49,693 bases of DNA, taken from the NCBI GenBank assembly GCA_026390585.1, contig JAPLFP010000221.1, forward strand, positions 1 to 49,693. The letters are read 5' to 3'. The translations under genes were made by a program, and so were the position numbers. Shown piece by piece: positions 6,843 through 16,115 of the stretch. Under the pieces are notes generated by a model. That model did no database searches, was not told the origin of the DNA, and worked only from the letters and a program-made list of their open reading frames with translations. Origin of the DNA: Ignavibacteriales bacterium. GTDB taxonomy: Bacteria > Bacteroidota > Ignavibacteria > UBA10030. Position 1 is the stretch's first letter, and each line of letters starts with the position of its first letter.

Positions 6843-6989
6843 ATGATCGGGCAGTCAATCTCACACTTCCACATCCTTGAGAAGCTTGGTGAAGTCCCAA
6901 AGTTGCCAACGAGTCCTCTTCGACGAGTCGATGCAACTTTGAGGATCCCGCTGTTTTCTAGCGGGAGCTGCAACGGATGCTCCCAATGA
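6843..6989 (+). CDS. Kinase-like leader peptide A (48 aa), translationally coupled to kinase 1
   Basis: A 48-codon frame starts at ATG 6843 behind CGGAGG. Its first 17 residues (MIGQSISHFHILEKLGE) copy the N-terminus of the kinases in this window. It then diverges at the glycine-rich loop into VPKLPTS...LRIPLFSSGS, encoded by a two-hairpin element. The stop TGA (6987-6989) overlaps the ATG of kinase 1 (ATGA), so translation is probably coupled. A second copy with the same design lies at 13288-13437. It may be a regulatory upstream ORF or the remnant of a kinase gene broken by an element. It is not a working kinase. Confidence 0.6.
   Translation: MIGQSISHFHILEKLGEVPKLPTSPLRRVDATLRIPLFSSGSCNGCSQ
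6898..6966 (+). repeat. Two-hairpin structured element, copy A
   Basis: Hairpin 1 pairs CAAAGTTGC (6898-6906) with GCAACTTTG (6933-6941). Hairpin 2 pairs TCCCGCT (6946-6952) with AGCGGGA (6960-6966) around a seven-base T-rich loop. Copy B (13343-13411) keeps both stems with compensatory changes at three base pairs while the linker GAGGA and flank GAAGTCCCAAA stay constant. That pattern indicates selection on structure. It could act as RNA (leader of the kinase message) or as DNA (mobile repeat). Confidence 0.6.
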
Positions 6990-9601
6990 TAGGTCAAACG
7001 ATTTCGCATTTCAGAATATTAGAAAAACTAGGTGAGGGTGGGATGGGCGTGGTGTACAAAGCCCATGACACCAAGCTAGATCGCGACGTTGCTCTCAAAT
7101 TCCTCCCGCACCACCTCTCTGCCACCACAGATGAACAAGCGCGATTCCTTCAAGAAGCCCGCGCGGCCTCGGCACTCAACCATCCCAGCATCTGCACGAT
7201 CCATGCAATTGAAGAAGAAAGCGGCCAACAGTTCATCGTCATGGAATACATCGAAGGGGGTACCCTCCGGGAGAAACTTCCCTACGCCAAGATCGATGAT
7301 GCGCTGAATGTCGCGCTTCAGATCGGTGAAGCACTCCAGGAAGCTCACGCCAAGGGGATCGTCCACAGGGACATCAAAGCCGACAATATCATGCTGACCT
7401 CCAAGGGTCAGGCGAAAGTAATGGATTTTGGACTGGCAAAGTTGAAGGGTTCGCTCAAGCTCACGAGAACGTCGAGCACGGTGGGCACGTTGGCGTACAT
7501 GGCTCCTGAGCAGATTCAGGGCGGAGAAGTGGATGCACGAAGTGACATCTTTTCGTTTGGCGTTCTTCTGTTTGAAATCTTGACGGGCCACCTCCCCTTC
7601 CGTGGCGAGCATGAGGCGGCGATGGTGTATTCGATTGTAAATGAAGATCCGGAGAACATCCAGAAATACGTTCCGAGTGCTTCACCGGAGCTCCAGTATG
7701 TCATCAAGACAACACTTGAGAAAAGCCCGGAAGACAGATATCAGCAGATCTCTGATGTTGTGCGTGACTTGCGACGGCTCACAAAACAAACCTCCCGCGT
7801 TGTCAGATCGACGACGGGCTATCAGATTCCGCAACAGCCGTCTGGTGACGTAGAGACGCAAGAGGCTCGGCAGCGTGCGTTCTCTCCTCGCAAGAAAACA
7901 ATCTTGTCCATCGCATCGATCGCGGTCGTTCTCGCAGTAGTCGTCGGTGTGATCACGATGCTCTCTTCACATGGAGGCGTCGAACTCAATCCCAGCATGA
8001 CCCAACGCGTACTCGAAGTCCCGTTTACCAACGTAGGTTACCCTGGACTTTCTGCAGATGGGATTTGGGCTGTTTTTCCCGCGGCCGATGCCCGGGGGAA
8101 ATGGGATATCTACCTCATGAACACAAGTAGTGGAGAGCATCGAAGAATCACCTATGATTCGAGCGAGTCAATAGATATAGGAAATGTGGATCTCTCTCCT
8201 GACGGGAGCGCGTTTGTCTATTATGTCGCGCCCGGCGGTAAGGTTGCTAAAGTGTTCACGAACTCAACCCTTGGAGGTGTGCGGAGGCTTCTTGCTGACT
8301 CTGCTTACGTAGCTCGTTACCAGCCGGATGGTAGGAGGGTCTTCTTCATGAGGGGTTCGAATATACAGAGCAAGTCAGGCAAGCTGGAGATTTGGAGCAT
8401 CAAGCCGGACGGAATTGATGAGCGACTTGAATTCATCGATAGCATCAGTGTCAGAGGTACGGTTTCACTTTCTGTCTCGCCTGACGGGAAGTCTGTTGTG
8501 TGGCTGCGTACTTTCCCGGAAGGAAACTATCAAGAGGCAGTCGTACACAACCTTGCCACAGGCAAAGAACGGCAGGTCACCTTTGACAAGAAGAACATCG
8601 ACGAAGTCTGCTGGACGCGGAACGATCAGATAATTTATTCTTCGAACAAGAGCGGCCGTCTCAATCTCTGGATGGTCCCGGCTGAGGGAGGTGCACCCGT
8701 TCAGATCACGAAAGGGATTGGACCAGACAATGGAATGAAAATATCGTCGGACGGGAAAAAGTTGCTGTATTTCCAAAGTCAGCAGATGGGGGACATTTGG
8801 ATTTCCGACCTTGAAGGCCGAAATCCGAAACAGTTGAGCATCGAAGGCCGCATGGCAATCGAGCCAGCCATCTCGCCTGATGGGAATTCCATTGCAGTGA
8901 GTCTTTCGACAGGGAACCCTTTAGATTTTAGTGTTTTTGAGCTGTACGTCATGAATCGCGACGGGAGTTCGCGACAACAACTGACGAGGTCAAACTCGCT
9001 TGCAGTATACCCCCGCTGGTCGCCGGATGGAAAACGCCTCGCTTTCACTGTCTCGCAAATTTCCGGTGGCAGCGCTGTGAACACCAAGGCGTTCGTCTTT
9101 GATATGGCAAACCCTGGCAAGCCGGTCGAAGTTGGACGTGGGGTTGCGATGCGCTGGCAGGATCAAAATGAACTGTTAGTGTTTGACAGTACGGGGACCT
9201 GGCGATACTCTCTCGATAGTTCCGGAAAAAAAGAGCTTCTCGATGATGCCTTTCGGACATTCCCCCTCCCGGGAAATCAGTATGTTTTGCGGTTTTCAGA
9301 GACTCCGGGCAAAGAAGGCGCTTGGCTTTCGTCGATGGACAAGAAGAAAGAGGCCCGACGTCTCCTGGACGGGAAGTTGACTGAATTTCGAGCAGCGCCG
9401 AACGGAAAATTTTTACTGTGGGCAAGGATTTCGGGTGAGTTTTGGAGAATCTCGCTGCCGGATGGAAAGCGAGAGAGACTGCCAATAACTATTTCCGGCA
9501 TCAATAATGGCTTCTCTGTCAGACAGGATGGCAAAGAAATCGTCTACGCCGTCGAGCGCAACGTCGGCAAATTGGTGATGATTGAGAATCTATTTAAGTA
9601 G
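6986..9601 (+). CDS. Transmembrane Ser/Thr protein kinase with TolB-like propeller sensor (kinase 1)
   Basis: 871 residues. The N-terminal Hanks-type kinase domain (about 1-270) is complete: glycine loop LGEGGMG, VALK with K38, HRDIKADN with D129, DFG at 147-149, and APEQ in the activation segment. A single transmembrane helix at about 305-327 is followed by an extracytoplasmic region of about 540 residues with repeated [LS]SPDG motifs (PD40/TolB-type beta-propeller blades). The design suggests a receptor kinase whose propeller senses an envelope or external signal and whose kinase domain phosphorylates cytoplasmic partners. The ATG at 6986 overlaps the stop of the leader peptide. The next kinase begins 7 bases after its stop, so they are one operon. 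Confidence 0.92.
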   Translation: MIGQTISHFRILEKLGEGGMGVVYKAHDTKLDRDVALKFLPHHLSATTDEQARFLQEARAASALNHPSICTIHAIEEESGQQFIVMEYIEGGTLREKLPYAKIDDALNVALQIGEALQEAHAKGIVHRDIKADNIMLTSKGQAKVMDFGLAKLKGSLKLTRTSSTVGTLAYMAPEQIQGGEVDARSDIFSFGVLLFEILTGHLPFRGEHEAAMVYSIVNEDPENIQKYVPSASPELQYVIKTTLEKSPEDRYQQISDVVRDLRRLTKQTSRVVRSTTGYQIPQQPSGDVETQEARQRAFSPRKKTILSIASIAVVLAVVVGVITMLSSHGGVELNPSMTQRVLEVPFTNVGYPGLSADGIWAVFPAADARGKWDIYLMNTSSGEHRRITYDSSESIDIGNVDLSPDGSAFVYYVAPGGKVAKVFTNSTLGGVRRLLADSAYVARYQPDGRRVFFMRGSNIQSKSGKLEIWSIKPDGIDERLEFIDSISVRGTVSLSVSPDGKSVVWLRTFPEGNYQEAVVHNLATGKERQVTFDKKNIDEVCWTRNDQIIYSSNKSGRLNLWMVPAEGGAPVQITKGIGPDNGMKISSDGKKLLYFQSQQMGDIWISDLEGRNPKQLSIEGRMAIEPAISPDGNSIAVSLSTGNPLDFSVFELYVMNRDGSSRQQLTRSNSLAVYPRWSPDGKRLAFTVSQISGGSAVNTKAFVFDMANPGKPVEVGRGVAMRWQDQNELLVFDSTGTWRYSLDSSGKKELLDDAFRTFPLPGNQYVLRFSETPGKEGAWLSSMDKKKEARRLLDGKLTEFRAAPNGKFLLWARISGEFWRISLPDGKRERLPITISGINNGFSVRQDGKEIVYAVERNVGKLVMIENLFK

Positions 9602-9608
9602 GGAAAAC

Positions 9609-12600
9609 ATGATTGGACAAACGATATCACACTATCGGATTCTCGAGAAACTGGGTGAAGGGGGCATGGGAGTTGTCTATAAGGGCCATGACACCAAACT
9701 CGATCGCGATGTTGCACTCAAGTTCCTCCCCCATCACCTCACCGCTACGGCGGATGAGCAAGCGCGGTTTCTCCAAGAAGCTCGTGCTGCCTCCGCATTG
9801 AACCACCCCAACGTTTGCACGATCTATGATATTGCCGAACACGATGGGCCCGCCTACGCTGGCGCTTCGGCGGGTAGGCAGCAGTTCATCGTCATGGAAA
9901 TTGTCGACGGTAAGACGTTGAGACAGATGGTCCCTCTTCAGAAGATCCAGACGGCCATTGACTACGCCATCCAGATTGGAGAAGCGCTTCAGGAAGCGCA
10001 CGGAAAAGGGGTCGTCCACCGTGATATCAAGACGGACAACATCATGGTCAATTCGAAGAACCAGATCAAGGTGATGGACTTCGGGTTGGCCAAGTTGAAG
10101 GGGTCGTTGAAGCTCACGAGGACCTCAAGCACGGTCGGGACGCTTGCGTACATGGCACCTGAGCAGATAGAGGGTGGAGAAGTTGATGCGCGTTCTGATA
10201 TCTTCTCCTTCGGAGTAGTCCTCTATGAAATGCTCACGGGTCACACCCCTTTCCGAGGAGAGCACGAAGCTGCGATGGTGTATTCGATCGTGAATGAGGA
10301 ACCGACCCCGGTAGAGAAATACCTCCCAGACATCCCCTCAGAACTTGTACATGTGCTGAATCGTGCGCTCGAGAAAGATCCCGAGGATCGCTACCAGTTT
10401 GTTCATGAGATGGTGATTGATCTGCGCAGACTGAAGAAGCAGACATCGAAAGTCGTGAGGTCGTATGAAGGATCTGTACCTCAACGAACCTCCGAGAGCC
10501 TGGCCGCTGAAACCAAGAAGTCATTGAGAATCCTTTCGCGCAAGAAATGGTTTCGCCCTTCTGCAATCAGTGCAGGGGCGGTGATCGCGCTGGTGCTGCT
10601 CTACGTCCTGGTGTGGCCTTCTCTTCATGGTCTTTTCTTTAGCACGAAACGCATCCAGATCGCAGTGATTTCATTTGAAAACCAAACAGGCGATCCTCAA
10701 TTCGATTATCTCCGCACTGCTATTCCGAACCTTCTCATCACCAGCCTTGAGCAATCCTCTGCACTGAGGGTCACGACGTGGGAGCGGATGCGGGATCTGC
10801 TCAAGCAGATGGGGAAAGCGGACGCTCAGGTCATAAATACAGATCTTGGCTTTGAGTTGTGCCGGCGGGACAGTGTCAAAGCACTGGTTACGGGAAGCTT
10901 CGTCAAAATGGGGGAGATGTTTGCCACGGACGTGAAGGTGCTGGATGTGGAAAGCAAACAGCTCCTGAAGAGCGCAGGCTCAAAAGGCGAGGGTGTCGGC
11001 AGCATCTTGAAGGTGCAGATTGACGAGCTCGGCAAGCAGATTGCCACAGGAATTGGGCTCCCGGAAACGAAAGTCGCAACAGAACAGAAGATGATCGCAG
11101 AAGTTACCACATCTTCATTGCAGGCATATAACCTCTATCTGAGAGGCGTTCAGGATTATGAGAACTTTTATTTCGTCGATGCACGCCGATCTCTTGAAAG
11201 AGCGGTTGCTCTCGATTCCACCTTTGCCATGGCCTGTTACTGGCTCGCGTCGACGTACGGTAGTCTCGGCGAGCGGCCACTGAGGCAGGGCGCGTGTGAA
11301 CGCGCTTATAGACTTCGCGAGAGGGTGACAAGAAAAGAAGCCTTGTTCATAGAGCGCGAATATGTCGTGAGGGTTGAGCGAGACCAGGACAAAGGGTACC
11401 GTTTGCTGAAGCAAATCGAATCCGAGTTCCCAAAAGAAAAAGGGGTGTACTTCTTGCTCTCGTTCTATGCCAGCGAGGACACCATTGCCAGATTGAAGCA
11501 GGCGCTGGCGCTTGATCCCTCATATGGTCCAGCGTTGAACCAGCTCGGATACGCATACGCGCAAAGAGGTGAATATCAGCAAGCCCTCGAAGCCTTCGAA
11601 CGATATGCAGCGGCCTATCCTGCAGATGCAAATCCGTACGATTCGATGGGTGAGATGTTCTATTTCATGGGGAGGCTTGATGACGCGATTGCGAAGTTTA
11701 AGGAAGCGTTGGACATCCGACCTGATTTCGGTTCCGCCATCGGGATCTCTTATGTTTATGCTCTGAAAGAAGAGTATGATGATGCCATCAGTTGGATCAA
11801 CAAGGTCCCTCCTAAGGGGCAGAATGAGGCTCCCAGGTTTCAAGTGCCTTTCTGTCGTGCGGGGTACGAATACTGGATCGGAAGAATATCGCAGTGCCAG
11901 CGCAGCCTTGCGTCGTTGGTCGAAGCGGCTCGCGCGGCGAAGAGTCCGGGATGGGAGGCGTTCGCGGTATGGATGCACGCTCGCATTCTCGCCGATCGAG
12001 GGCATCTCGAGGAAGCAAGAAGGACGCTTGACGATTGGGACACCTTGTTCGTGCAGGCGTATCCGGCCGACTATGTTCACGCGTTCAATGGCCTCACGCA
12101 GGCGAGACTCTTATTGAAGGAAGGTCAGACCAAGCCCGCGGAGGCGGCGGTCCGTGCTGCCGAGTCCGCGATCCCAAGGCTGAGTAGTTTCTATCAACCC
12201 TGGTTGGGGTATCTTCAGTTCCAGGTCCATGGCGAACTGTTGCTGGCGCAGGGGAAGACTGATGAAGCGATCCGTCATCTGACAGGTCAGGTTGAATTAC
12301 CCTCGCAACAGATTTCCGGTGGTGTTGTCCAAAATGCCACCTTCGCACTCCCTCGCGATGTTCTGGCACGAGCCTACGTGCAAAAAGGGGACATTGATGC
12401 GGCGATCAAAGAGTACGAACGCATCACAACATTTGATCCGGGAAGCCGGGACAGAAGGTTGATCGATCCCCTCCATCGCTATGAATTGGCGAAGCTGTAC
12501 GAGAGGAAGGGATTGAAAGACAAGGCGATTGGACAGTACGAGAAGTTCCTTTCGCTGTGGAAGAACGCAGACGCGGACCGCGTCGAGCCGAAGGATGCAA

Positions 12601-12641
12601 GGGCGCGGCTTGCCAGACTCAAGGGCCCAGGAAAGAAATGA
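9609..12641 (+). CDS. Transmembrane Ser/Thr protein kinase with TPR tail (kinase 2)
   Basis: 1010 residues. The Hanks-type kinase domain (about 1-285) is complete: LGEGGMG, VALK, HRDIKTDN, DFG, APEQ. A transmembrane helix follows at about 317-338. Next comes a region IAVISFENQTGDPQFDYL typical of the domain that precedes TPRs in adenylate-cyclase-like and FlgO/TolB-N-like proteins, then many tetratricopeptide repeats (about 500-1000) likely to bind protein partners. Between strands of the N-lobe there is an extra in-frame stretch GPAYAGASAGR encoded by a palindromic repeat and absent from the two sister kinases. It has no leader peptide of its own. The stop TGA overlaps the ATG of the RAYT gene. 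Confidence 0.9.
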   Translation: MIGQTISHYRILEKLGEGGMGVVYKGHDTKLDRDVALKFLPHHLTATADEQARFLQEARAASALNHPNVCTIYDIAEHDGPAYAGASAGRQQFIVMEIVDGKTLRQMVPLQKIQTAIDYAIQIGEALQEAHGKGVVHRDIKTDNIMVNSKNQIKVMDFGLAKLKGSLKLTRTSSTVGTLAYMAPEQIEGGEVDARSDIFSFGVVLYEMLTGHTPFRGEHEAAMVYSIVNEEPTPVEKYLPDIPSELVHVLNRALEKDPEDRYQFVHEMVIDLRRLKKQTSKVVRSYEGSVPQRTSESLAAETKKSLRILSRKKWFRPSAISAGAVIALVLLYVLVWPSLHGLFFSTKRIQIAVISFENQTGDPQFDYLRTAIPNLLITSLEQSSALRVTTWERMRDLLKQMGKADAQVINTDLGFELCRRDSVKALVTGSFVKMGEMFATDVKVLDVESKQLLKSAGSKGEGVGSILKVQIDELGKQIATGIGLPETKVATEQKMIAEVTTSSLQAYNLYLRGVQDYENFYFVDARRSLERAVALDSTFAMACYWLASTYGSLGERPLRQGACERAYRLRERVTRKEALFIEREYVVRVERDQDKGYRLLKQIESEFPKEKGVYFLLSFYASEDTIARLKQALALDPSYGPALNQLGYAYAQRGEYQQALEAFERYAAAYPADANPYDSMGEMFYFMGRLDDAIAKFKEALDIRPDFGSAIGISYVYALKEEYDDAISWINKVPPKGQNEAPRFQVPFCRAGYEYWIGRISQCQRSLASLVEAARAAKSPGWEAFAVWMHARILADRGHLEEARRTLDDWDTLFVQAYPADYVHAFNGLTQARLLLKEGQTKPAEAAVRAAESAIPRLSSFYQPWLGYLQFQVHGELLLAQGKTDEAIRHLTGQVELPSQQISGGVVQNATFALPRDVLARAYVQKGDIDAAIKEYERITTFDPGSRDRRLIDPLHRYELAKLYERKGLKDKAIGQYEKFLSLWKNADADRVEPKDARARLARLKGPGKK
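9849..9879. repeat. Palindromic repeat inserted in frame in kinase 2
   Basis: CCCGCC (9849-9854) pairs with GGCGGG (9869-9874), and alternatively GCCTAC (9852-9857) pairs with GTAGGC (9874-9879). The translated product PAYAGASAG is the kind of peptide produced by REP-like palindromes that insert into coding sequences in other environmental bacteria. The two sister kinases lack it at this position, so it is an insertion. Confidence 0.6.
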
Positions 12642-13291
12642 TTGGGGGGACTGGAAAACAAAGGAAGCGTCTTCGGCTGAAGCAGTATGATTATTCTCAG
12701 CCGGGAGCGTATTTCGTGACGATCTGCACGAAGGATCGGGAACACCGTTTTGGAGAAATCGTAGAAGGCGAAATGTGGGCGAATGGTATGGCAGCGGTCG
12801 TGCAATCGCGTTGGAACGATTTGCCGAATCATTACCCAAATGTTGAATTGGATGAATTTGTCATCATGCCCAACCACGTGCATGGGATTATTGTGATTTT
12901 GGACAAACCCGTCACGGTGGGGGATCCCACCGTAGGGGATGGTGCCAAACCATTGGATCAACCCGCGGTAGCGGCGACGTCCCGTCGCCCAAATACCGGG
13001 GCGGGGTCTCCCCGCCCCTACCTGGGAAATGTGGTGGCGTATTTCAAATACCAATCCGCAAAACGCATCAACGAAATCAACGGTACGCCCAGCACGCCTG
13101 TTTGGCAACGCGGGTATTACGATCATATAATCCGCGACGACCGTTCGCTGACGCGGATCCGTGAATACATTGCCCACAACCCTCAACGATGGGCATCGGA
13201 CAAACAGAATCCCGACTCCGAAGCGAATGATGAATTTGAACGTTGGTTGTCTTCAACAGGCAAACGTCCCATTCAGGAGGGCACGCAATGA
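12638..13291 (+). CDS. REP-associated tyrosine transposase (RAYT, Y1/HUH family)
   Basis: 217 residues when started at the ATG at 12638, which overlaps the stop of kinase 2; the open frame also extends upstream. Family features: the N-terminal YDYSQPGAYFVTICTKDR, the HUH metal motif in MPNHVHGIIVI, and the catalytic tyrosine region YYDHIIRDDRSL followed by REYIAHNPQRW. RAYTs are domesticated single-strand nucleases of the IS200/IS605 type that move or maintain REP palindromes. Its stop TGA overlaps the ATG of leader peptide B. The gene therefore sits seamlessly, stop-start on both sides, inside a kinase operon. The coding sequence itself contains an inverted pair of REP-like palindromes (12967-13022). 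Confidence 0.88.
   Translation: MIGGTGKQRKRLRLKQYDYSQPGAYFVTICTKDREHRFGEIVEGEMWANGMAAVVQSRWNDLPNHYPNVELDEFVIMPNHVHGIIVILDKPVTVGDPTVGDGAKPLDQPAVAATSRRPNTGAGSPRPYLGNVVAYFKYQSAKRINEINGTPSTPVWQRGYYDHIIRDDRSLTRIREYIAHNPQRWASDKQNPDSEANDEFERWLSSTGKRPIQEGTQ
12915..12932. repeat. Palindrome inside the RAYT gene
   Basis: CGGTGGG (12915-12921) and CCCACCG (12926-12932) form a perfect 7-bp stem around four bases, directly followed by TAGGGG. It lies just upstream of the GGTAG-headed REP pair and may be a third, degenerate unit. Confidence 0.5.
12967..13022. repeat. BIME-like pair of inverted REP palindromes inside the RAYT gene
   Basis: The first unit has head GGTAG (12967-12971) and stem GGCGACG/CGTCGCC (12973-12979 with 12983-12989). 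The second, facing the other way, has stem GGGGCGGGG/CCCCGCCCC (12998-13006 with 13010-13018) and tail CTACC (13018-13022). A GTAG-type head next to a hairpin is the hallmark of sequences recognised by RAYTs. The pair is read through in frame (AATSRRPNTGAGSPRPY) between the HUH and tyrosine motifs. Confidence 0.75.
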
Positions 13292-13437
13292 TCGGTCAGA
13301 CAATTTCCCACTATAAGATTATTGAGAAGCTTGGCGAAGTCCCAAAATGGCTCACGAGCGTTTCTCAGCGAGTGATTGCCATTTTGAGGATCCCGCCGTT
13401 TTTTGGCGGGAGCTATCAGACAGGAGGCGACCTATGA
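13288..13437 (+). CDS. Kinase-like leader peptide B (49 aa), translationally coupled to kinase 3
   Basis: ATG at 13288 overlaps the RAYT stop and follows CAGGAGGG. The first 17 residues (MIGQTISHYKIIEKLGE) repeat the kinase N-terminus, then the frame runs VPKWLTS...ILRIPPFFGGS through the two-hairpin element. Its TGA (13435-13437) overlaps the ATG of kinase 3, which has its own AGGAGG. The divergence point, the shared VPK..TS and LRIP.F..GS words and the ATGA overlap are the same as in leader A. Confidence 0.6.
   Translation: MIGQTISHYKIIEKLGEVPKWLTSVSQRVIAILRIPPFFGGSYQTGGDL
13343..13411 (+). repeat. Two-hairpin structured element, copy B
   Basis: Hairpin 1 pairs CAAAATGGC (13343-13351) with GCCATTTTG (13378-13386). 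Hairpin 2 pairs TCCCGCC (13391-13397) with GGCGGGA (13405-13411) around GTTTTTT. Compared with copy A, two pairs in stem 1 and one in stem 2 changed on both sides together. Total length (69 bases) is the same in both copies. Confidence 0.6.
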
Positions 13438-16115
13438 TCGGCCAGAAAATTTCCCACTACAAGATCCTTGAAAAGCTCGGTGAGGGGGGCATGGGCGTTG
13501 TCTACAAAGCCCACGACCTCAAACTCGATCGCATCGTCGCATTGAAATTTCTCCCGCATCACCTGACCTCTAACGAAGCAGAACAAGCCCGGTTTCTTCA
13601 AGAAGCCCGGGCAGCGTCGGCTCTCAATCATCCAAACATCTGCGCCATCTATTCCATCGGTGAAGAAGGAGAGATGCAGTTCATCGAAATGGAATTCGTG
13701 GATGGCGTGACGTTGCGCGAGAAGACCGAAGGAGGCAAGCTGCAGATTGCAGGCTGCGTGGGCTATGCGGTCCAGATTGGCGAGGCATTGCAGGAAGCGC
13801 ACAGCAAGGGGATAGTCCATCGAGACGTGAAAATGGACAATATCATGGTCAACGCGAAGGACCAGGTGAAGGTGATGGACTTCGGGCTGGCTAAGCTTAA
13901 GGGCTCGTTGAAGCTGACAAAAACATCGAGCACCGTGGGGACGCTGGCATATATGGCTCCTGAACAAATCGAAGGAGGAGAGGTCGATGCACGGTCCGAC
14001 ATTTTCTCATTCGGGGTCGTCTTGTACGAGATGCTGACAGGACATTTGCCTTTCCGTGGCGAGCATGAGGCGGCGATGGTGTACTCGATCGTGAACGAGG
14101 AACCTGAGCCGATCGAAAAATACAGAACTGACCTCTCTCCGGTCCTTGTGAATCTGATACAGCGTGCCCTCGAAAAGAATCCTGGCGACAGGTATCAGTC
14201 GATGTCTGACATGGTTATTGAGCTGAAACGCTTGCTGAAGAAGACGTCGAAGGTTGTTCGAAGTGCGTCTCAGGTGACCCATCGCGTTGGTGAGCTGGAG
14301 GGTACTCCGACAACTGGTGAAGCGGTCTCACCTGCGGAGTCTGGCTCTGGGAAGTCTTCTTCGATATTTCGGAACAAGCTCGTGATCATTGGAGCTGCAA
14401 TTGTTGCGGTTATCATCGTTGTTGGGGCCTTGTACGAATTCGTCTTGAAGAAAGAATCCACCAGCCCGCGGACATTTTCCGTTCAGTCGATGAAGGTTAC
14501 GCGGCTCACTTCGAATGGCAAGGCGCGGCAGGCTGCAGTTTCTCCCGACGGGAGATACGTGGTGTTTTCCACCGAGGAGTCTGGAAAACGAAGTCTCTGG
14601 GTTCGACAGGTGGCGACGAACAGCAATATTCAGATCATCCCACCTCTCGATGTGACCTATTACGGTCTGACGATTTCGCAGGATGGAAACTACGTGTTCT
14701 ATGTCGCGTATCAGCGAACCACGGGCAAGTCGGCCGTTTATCAAGTCCCAGTGCTCGGGGGGACGCCAAGAAAAATCCTGGATGATGTGGACAACCCTAT
14801 TGCCCTTTCTCCCGACAACAAGATGCTGACATTTGTACGATACACCGCGGCTACAGGCACATTTGCCTTGATGGTGGCGAAAACAGATGGGTCGGAACCA
14901 AAGGAACTTGCATCCCACAAGGCCGATCAATGGTTCGCTGGCAGGCCGGCCTGGTCACCCGACGGCAAAGTGATTGCGTGCGCGCTTGGGTCATGGGAAG
15001 GAGGATTTCACCACTCTGTAGTCACAGTGCAAGTTGAAGGGGGAGCAGAGCGACGATTCACCCGGCAGCGTTGGTACGTAGTTTCTGAGCTTCAATGGCT
15101 TCCTGATGTCAGCGGCATTGTGCTGAATGCAGGGGACAGAGGTTCATTCGTAACCCAGATTTGGCAGCTTTCGTACCCCGATGGCGCAGCAATCCGAACC
15201 ACGAATGATCTACTCGACTACGAAAGCCCGAGTCTCACGAACGACGCTCAAACGCTGTGCGTGGTTCAGGGGGATTATCGCTCAAGCATTTGGATTCTTC
15301 CACAGGGGAGTGTTGCACGTGCTCAACAAATTACCAACGGCAAGGACGAGGGGTTCATAGGTCTTGCATGGACGCCGGACGGGAAAATCGTCTATAGTTC
15401 GTCGGTGAGTGGAAGCCCCGATCTGTGGCTCATGGATCGCGATGGAAAGAATCAGAAGCAGTTGACTGCTGACACTGCATTTGATTCCGCACCAGCCGTT
15501 TCGCCGGATGGCAAATTCATCCTGTTCGGAACAGAACGTTCTGGCATACCCAACATCTGGAGGATGGAACTTGATGGATCAAGACCGCGCCAACTGACCG
15601 GTGGGGCAGAGAACTACAGCCCCAGCATCTCTCCTGATGGCAAGTGGTTTGCCTTTTGCTCCTGGGTCAAAGGACCCTTGTTCATTATGAAGATGTCAAC
15701 TGAAGGCGGCGAACAGGTTCAATTGTCGGAGACGAATGGCTACTGTCCTGCGATATCGCCGGACGGAAAGCTCATAGCCTATCTTCACGTTGACGAGCAA
15801 ACGAGGAACAGCCAAATTGAAGTGATGGATGCCAAGGGAGGGAAGCCAGTTAAGAAGTTTGAAGTGATCCCTACTCTCCAGGATAGGGGAGTGATGAGGT
15901 GGAGCCGCAACGGCTCTGCACTGGAGTACGTTGATAGGCGCCAAGGAGCTTCAAACATATGGAGTCAACCGCTGAGCGGTGGTCCGCCGAAGCAGGTAAC
16001 GGATTTCAAGTCGGACTATCTGTCATCATTTGACTGGTCACCGGACGGCAAGTTCCTCGCGGTCACCCGCTATTCATTTTCTTCAGATGTGGTCTTAATG
16101 AGCAACGCCAAGTAG
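13434..16115 (+). CDS. Transmembrane Ser/Thr protein kinase with TolB-like propeller sensor (kinase 3)
   Basis: 893 residues. The kinase domain is complete: LGEGGMG, VALKFLPHHL, HRDVKMDN, DFGLA, APEQIEGG. A transmembrane helix lies at about 320-342 (KLVIIGAAIVAVIIVVGALYE). The outer part holds many PD40 blades (VSPDGRYVVFS, WSPDGKVIA, ISPDGKWFAF and others), as in kinase 1. Start is the ATG at 13434 behind AGGAGG; a longer in-frame start at 13347 would translate the hairpin element and is rejected. The N-terminal domains of all three kinases are close paralogues, so the operon arose by tandem duplication with sensor exchange. Confidence 0.92.
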   Translation: MIGQKISHYKILEKLGEGGMGVVYKAHDLKLDRIVALKFLPHHLTSNEAEQARFLQEARAASALNHPNICAIYSIGEEGEMQFIEMEFVDGVTLREKTEGGKLQIAGCVGYAVQIGEALQEAHSKGIVHRDVKMDNIMVNAKDQVKVMDFGLAKLKGSLKLTKTSSTVGTLAYMAPEQIEGGEVDARSDIFSFGVVLYEMLTGHLPFRGEHEAAMVYSIVNEEPEPIEKYRTDLSPVLVNLIQRALEKNPGDRYQSMSDMVIELKRLLKKTSKVVRSASQVTHRVGELEGTPTTGEAVSPAESGSGKSSSIFRNKLVIIGAAIVAVIIVVGALYEFVLKKESTSPRTFSVQSMKVTRLTSNGKARQAAVSPDGRYVVFSTEESGKRSLWVRQVATNSNIQIIPPLDVTYYGLTISQDGNYVFYVAYQRTTGKSAVYQVPVLGGTPRKILDDVDNPIALSPDNKMLTFVRYTAATGTFALMVAKTDGSEPKELASHKADQWFAGRPAWSPDGKVIACALGSWEGGFHHSVVTVQVEGGAERRFTRQRWYVVSELQWLPDVSGIVLNAGDRGSFVTQIWQLSYPDGAAIRTTNDLLDYESPSLTNDAQTLCVVQGDYRSSIWILPQGSVARAQQITNGKDEGFIGLAWTPDGKIVYSSSVSGSPDLWLMDRDGKNQKQLTADTAFDSAPAVSPDGKFILFGTERSGIPNIWRMELDGSRPRQLTGGAENYSPSISPDGKWFAFCSWVKGPLFIMKMSTEGGEQVQLSETNGYCPAISPDGKLIAYLHVDEQTRNSQIEVMDAKGGKPVKKFEVIPTLQDRGVMRWSRNGSALEYVDRRQGASNIWSQPLSGGPPKQVTDFKSDYLSSFDWSPDGKFLAVTRYSFSSDVVLMSNAK

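Follow-up and report, generated by a model that had tools for sequence, protein, structure and literature searches.

A Two-Hairpin Repeat of Ignavibacteria in Broken tRNA and Kinase Genes, Probably Kept before Kinases as a Translated Leader

We analysed a window of 49,693 nucleotides from an Ignavibacteriales bacterium (contig JAPLFP010000221.1, assembly GCA_026390585.1), in which a short two-hairpin element stands twice between a truncated kinase gene front and an intact kinase gene. The element belongs to a repeat family with covarying stems and a distinct genomic niche at tRNA and kinase genes, where it recurs at exact sites; before kinases, both the reading frame and its overlap with the next start codon are conserved. 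We consider it probable that the element is a non-autonomous mobile hairpin repeat that is not specific to kinases, and that selection has retained its insertions in kinase genes as translated leaders to which the next kinase is coupled. A preceding sequence-only reading of the window had offered two possibilities, namely a leader for translational coupling or a mobile repeat with kinase 5' ends as its targets. Parts of both are retained here, as the frame and the ATGA overlap are kept at kinases and the repeat is dispersed, but the element is not dedicated to kinases and lies mostly at tRNA genes.

Leader Units in the Window

Both fragment-element-kinase units are present in the window (Table 1). 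In each, a kinase 5' end of 52 nt leads into a 72-nt element, which a short spacer separates from the start of an intact kinase. The two leader frames had been described as open and as ending in the ATGA of the next kinase, and we confirmed this for the ORFs of 48 and 49 amino acids. The three compensatory pair differences reported between the two copies, two in stem 1 and one in stem 2, were also found.

Table 1. Positions of the leader units and neighbouring genes in the window.
Feature	Position	Strand	Description and evidence
Kinase 5' fragment 1 (MIGQSISHFHILEKLGE)	6843..6894	+	Ser/Thr kinase, 17 codons + 1 nt, cut in glycine-rich loop, site LGE
Element copy 1, whole	6895-6966	+	cmsearch, 81.8 bits
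Element copy 1, hairpin 1 (TCCCAAAGTTGC...GCAACTTTGAGGA, bulged A)	6895..6945	+	cmsearch and pairing
Element copy 1, hairpin 2 (TCCCGCTGTTTTCTAGCGGGA)	6946..6966	+	cmsearch and pairing
Leader ORF 1, 48 aa	6843..6989	+	Stop TGA within ATGA of kinase 1 start (6986-6989)
Kinase 1, intact	6986..9601	+	Pkinase and PD40 beta-propeller; Pfam
Kinase 2, without leader unit	9609..12641	+	Pkinase and TPR; Pfam and sequence
Y1_Tnp (IS200-like/RAYT-like) ORF	12638..13291	+	Weak Pfam match; ATGA overlaps at both ends
Kinase 5' fragment 2 (MIGQTISHYKIIEKLGE)	13288..13339	+	Cut at site LGE, as fragment 1
Element copy 2, whole	13340-13411	+	cmsearch, 94.2 bits
Element copy 2, hairpin 1 (TCCCAAAATGGC...GCCATTTTGAGGA)	13340..13390	+	cmsearch
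Element copy 2, hairpin 2 (TCCCGCCGTTTTTTGGCGGGA)	13391..13411	+	cmsearch and pairing
Leader ORF 2, 49 aa	13288..13437	+	Stop TGA within ATGA of kinase 3 start (13434-13437); SD-like AGGAG 7 nt before ATG
Kinase 3, intact	13434..16115	+	Pkinase and PD40; Pfam

The Y1 (IS200-like) ORF lies inside the kinase cluster and shares an ATGA with each neighbouring gene. Positions 12968-13021, in frame within this gene, hold head-to-head GTAG-tagged palindromes (GTAGCGGCGACGTCCCGTCGCCC and inverted GTAGGGGCGGGGAGACCCCGCCCC) that have no second copy in the genome. No orthologous empty site for the kinase cluster was readable among the relatives examined, because these carry other genes downstream of the M16 peptidase and the cluster itself is absent there. 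Rfam gave no match at the gathering score in the window, only sub-threshold chance matches.

Structure, Covariation and Distribution of the Element

The element is a repeat of about 72 nt with two strongly covarying hairpins and the ends TNCC...CGGGA. Its structure was written by hand on an alignment of 25 copies (A2), in which 98.6% of the cells are paired, compared with 28-48% under slid structures. The covariation score was 0.428, against 0.114 for shuffled and at most 0.093 for slid structures, and 12 pairs had changed on both sides. In stem 1, the bases T-N-C-C are matched with G-N'-A, and the A that bulges out of this pairing is the same in all 25 aligned copies; the motif GAGGA, which had been taken for a linker, is in fact part of this stem. 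Columns 2 and 53 of A2, that is, the second element base (in TNCC) and the middle of AGN'AT, covary. Secondary palindromes of the GCCTGCCTGCGTGCCGAAGGGCACTTCGGCACGCAGG type were observed within hairpin 1 of some kinase-associated copies (L125, L273, L050), in which the leader frame is still kept.

A DNA search of the own genome returned further copies, in intergenic and tRNA neighbourhoods, and 26 of 41 relatives also gave matches. We then counted copies in the own genome, its congeners, the family and the class with a covariance model (R1). The own genome holds 13 copies rather than the two first noticed, each congener holds 7-20, and matches were found in 26 of the 32 genomes of the family and in 33 of the 245 of the class; these genomes are mostly fragmented metagenome assemblies, in which repeats frequently fall at contig ends. 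The sequence-only reading had proposed such a search of related genomes as a check, and many further copies were found.

A pattern scan over 84,980 species yielded 52 stretches, mostly in Ignavibacteria/Bacteroidota MAGs of the element's host group. The scattered remaining matches are close to chance, with about 9 expected by an estimate based on the length of the pattern and the size of the collection. Outside Ignavibacteria there are essentially no clear matches. A phage origin was discarded, as the pattern was absent from the viral contigs scanned. No paper on such repeats in Ignavibacteria, or on tRNA and kinase sites with a coupled leader, was found among the openly licensed literature searched.

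Insertion in tRNA Genes

There are 189 distinct copies, of which 104 (~55%) are located at tRNA genes and 56 (~30%) at kinases. The original description placed the element in front of receptor kinases, but most copies are found at tRNA genes. Because no reading frame is involved there, the element cannot be regarded as a dedicated kinase leader. About 85% of all copies lie within a broken gene piece that adjoins an intact gene of the same kind, usually just upstream of the intact gene. In 54 of 110 copies, the 30-nt left flank of the element is found again within 400 nt downstream, compared with an upstream recurrence in 8 of 113; for shuffled left flanks, even the maximum stayed below the recurrence threshold. 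Since it is the left flank that recurs downstream, the element has the broken front piece on its left side and the intact gene on its right side, irrespective of the strand of the tRNA.

The tRNA genes are cut at positions 10-11 and 15-16, in the anticodon loop, in the variable region and at the gene ends. Beyond the element the broken tRNA copy often continues for several nucleotides, as in GACCTC/element/CAGGGCCACAACCTG and GCCTT/element/CTAAGC, and this resumption points to a clean insertion without short target duplication. The tRNA-His locus provides an empty site, being a single gene in one species (G000) and a broken copy plus element in another (G003); insertion polymorphism within a species was not seen. 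Two loci (L136 and L025) retain far-end remnants of the broken tRNA, so that at least these began as whole-gene duplicates.

Several features of the junctions were also recorded. The base directly after CGGGA tends to match the one that comes next in the target, and CTGMA follows the element in many tRNA and kinase copies. At L123, L002, L106, L117, L121 and L109, the element abuts the 3' end of a tRNA-Glu-like gene (..TTAGGGCTAC/TTCC..). On the reverse strand of L118 (G003:C16, 1600-2250), an intact tRNA-Arg is preceded by a tandem array of three broken copies of this gene, and each broken copy has a different palindrome in the D-loop and the present element in the anticodon loop.

At some tRNA copies the direct repeats are long and include non-coding flank (73 nt at L059, 51 nt at L130 and 88 nt at L118), and the 51-nt repeat starts exactly at the right end of the element. 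The units, and with them these repeats, could have formed if the hairpin provoked template switching or a tandem duplication, whereby the element was inserted and the gene front was recopied downstream, like a very long target-site duplication. However, broken tRNA copies often continue beyond the element, and kinase fragments are not closest to their own downstream gene (see the next section). We think this process rather unlikely; it concerns formation only and is compatible with the reading of the kinase units as coupled leaders.

As for the mover, the hairpin form of the element and its insertion without target duplication resemble IS200/IS605 chemistry. It could be a REP moved by the Y1 (IS200-like) tyrosine transposase whose ORF directly precedes copy 2, and this ORF is a weak candidate. 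The other six Y1_Tnp genes of the genome, however, are on contigs without a detected element copy, so that no RAYT gene flanked by the element was found in it; the palindromes within the window's Y1 gene are GTAG-tagged and of a different kind; and the element itself lacks a GTAG tag. Movement by a RAYT thus finds no support, and the REP/RAYT explanation is quite unlikely.

Recurrent Cut Sites and Independent Origins in Kinase Genes

Throughout the family we found 51 units composed of fragment, element and kinase start, and in 49 of them the fragment ends at one of six precise positions, namely behind MIGQ, LGE, GGM, GVVYK, DTK or ALK. The host kinase gene is cut after 4-38 codons. The remaining two units show an irregular cut at 50 nt (L061) and an altered fragment (L099, counted under GVVYK by length only). 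One locus, L044 (G005:C352, 520-940), has three leader units head to tail before a single kinase, with the cut sites MIGQ, LGE and GVVYK.

When mapped on the tree built from the downstream kinases, the cut sites change 25 times, against a mean of 22.6 after shuffling, and so show no clustering. A fragment is 71.4% identical to its own downstream kinase and 71.0% identical to other kinases, and fragments are no closer to one another (0.708). Most fragment-kinase differences are at third positions, nearly as between kinases. The scattered sites, together with an identity that is no higher for the own kinase, indicate that the arrangement arose many times from different neighbours and was not copied as one cassette. 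Local duplication as the source of the fragments was rejected on the near-equal identities, and with it the suggestion that a start is rebuilt from a local fragment copy. The spread of ready-made fragment-element cassettes is likewise unsupported, given that the fragments are no more similar to one another and that the sites are scattered on the tree.

Conservation of the Leader Frame

In 39 of 44 kinase units, the frame runs from the start codon of the fragment through the element to the TGA of the next ATGA. Units cut after MIGQ, where the fragment has 4 codons, and the irregularly cut unit are left out of this count, and for stacked units the next ATGA is the start of the next fragment. When elements from non-kinase places were swapped in, the rule held in 11%. 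The element itself is open in the required phase in 43 of the 44 units, compared with 32-37% of non-kinase copies. Conforming units are 134-251 nt long, always 2 mod 3, with elements of 57-116 nt. The exceptions outside MIGQ are L048, L133, L051, L258 and L275. Because the kinase units are homologous, a binomial p-value for the frame rule would be too small and should not be taken literally; the tree argues for many origins.

A prediction for copies from other families and orders had been written beforehand. All nine non-MIGQ units obeyed the frame rule, at known cut sites; one of them (L311) is on a contig that was already counted, which leaves eight of eight new units. At the MIGQ site the frame is broken in 5 of 6 units within the family and in 3 of 4 outside it.

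These results bear on whether the units are a dead repeat, that is, inert leftover insertions with frames open by accident or inheritance. A few units do have a broken frame or a lost start codon (L048, L044:529). However, the swapped-element comparison, the eight new units, conforming lengths that are all 2 mod 3 and the scatter of cut sites over the kinase tree strongly disfavour inertness, and we consider it highly improbable. Broken frames, a lack of further covariation and random locations had been named in advance as signs of such a dead repeat or of coincidence; these signs did not hold for the main cut sites, whereas most units at the MIGQ site lose the frame.

Units cut at different sites are read through the element in different phases, and hence the leader peptides differ as well; what is conserved is an open frame that ends in ATGA. 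A conserved leader peptide was ruled out, as there are two reading phases depending on the cut site. Since the peptides past the cut differ by phase, translation itself, and not the peptide, appears to matter. An SD-like motif is located 3-13 nt before the next start in 45 of 51 units, and in many GGM-site units the SD lies at the right arm of hairpin 2.

It might be suggested that the unit is a regulatory attenuator, in which two hairpins and a leader ORF sense, for example, translation rate or kinase level and tune kinase synthesis. The leader ORF, the ATGA overlap and the hairpins are all conserved in kinase units, and part of the SD is base-paired in the predicted structure. However, the same element is mostly found at tRNA genes without an ORF, the peptide sequence and reading phase vary between cut sites, and most kinases have no unit (only 2 of ~11 in the own genome carry one). 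An attenuator is thus unlikely. That the frame, the ATGA overlap and the base pairing are preserved across many kinase units of independent origin argues for coupled translation.

A Possible Course of Events

Insertion of the repeat would be clean, leaving no short target duplication, and would take place in the front part of tRNA genes or receptor-type Ser/Thr kinase genes. Copies that persist would be those with an intact gene of the same kind directly downstream, after most of the remainder of the broken gene had been lost. In kinases, what is left of the gene front, reaching from its start codon to one of a small set of exact codons, may then have been kept with the element as a translated leader. 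Ribosomes would start at the start codon of the fragment, traverse and melt both hairpins, stop at the TGA of the ATGA and restart on the intact kinase. Selection may hold the leader frame, since the downstream kinase would be deprived of ribosomes by a stop codon or frameshift in the leader.

Simple insertion does not explain the intact gene downstream or the loss of the remainder of the broken gene. Tentatively, a hairpin element that chooses its sites could home to a few exact tRNA and kinase positions by a single-strand or template-switch mechanism, leaving the gene front upstream and an intact gene downstream, and creating a coupling leader anew in kinases; we regard this as less likely than the retained-insertion explanation.

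Under the latter explanation, the kinase units suggest that selection has repeatedly turned the wreckage of repeat insertion into the same arrangement, in which a truncated paralogue and a mobile hairpin become a translated leader feeding the next gene. They would amount to dozens of natural experiments run in parallel on translational coupling, for which copies of the element at tRNA genes serve as a clear internal control. That two unrelated gene types are hit at exact, recurrent sites speaks for a targeting mechanism, which might be deduced from sequence data.

Comparison with Known Systems

Rickettsia palindromic elements (RPEs) are short hairpin repeats that enter genes and keep the frame open (PMC10969869). 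The present element resembles RPEs and CGTC palindromes as a short hairpin repeat in genes with an open frame. However, an RPE stays in frame inside an otherwise whole protein, whereas the host gene of our element is truncated at one of a few exact codons and its frame runs into the ATGA of the next gene. The element also differs in lineage and in that most of its copies are at tRNA genes. Its ends read TNCC...CGGGA, and no conserved CGTC tag was seen in the 25-copy alignment.

REPs are dispersed, non-autonomous hairpin repeats with GTAG tags and RAYTs, in which stem sequences vary and structure is conserved (PMC3733652). The element is similar to REP/BIME in its dispersal, its lack of autonomy and its conserved structure with variable stem sequence. 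It differs as a two-hairpin, 72-nt unit with about a dozen copies per genome, ~85% of them in pieces of tRNA or kinase genes, and with no linked RAYT. No GTAG tag was found at the element end; the left flanks are target sequence (GAAG, AAAG, ATG, tRNA pieces), and GTAG is beside the element only where the tRNA itself has GTAG.

MITEs are matched in part. The element is short (72 nt), non-autonomous and dispersed in 189 copies, with TCCC...GGGA terminal inverted repeats; its junctions are without a short target-site duplication, and no cognate transposase was found.

Integrative islands and group I introns use tRNA genes as sites, including the anticodon loop, and leave an intact tRNA. The element shares these sites and this outcome. 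However, it has no integrase gene, it uses many tRNA positions on both strands, and its intact gene lies downstream.

An ATGA stop/start overlap with a leader ORF is classical for translational coupling in operons, where the SD is near or inside a hairpin and reinitiation is implied. In the kinase units, too, the SD is near or inside a hairpin, and the open frame ends at the overlapping stop/start in 39 of 44 units and in all eight new ones. Unlike the leader of a classical operon, the present leader consists of a broken paralogue and a probably mobile repeat, and it has formed independently many times.
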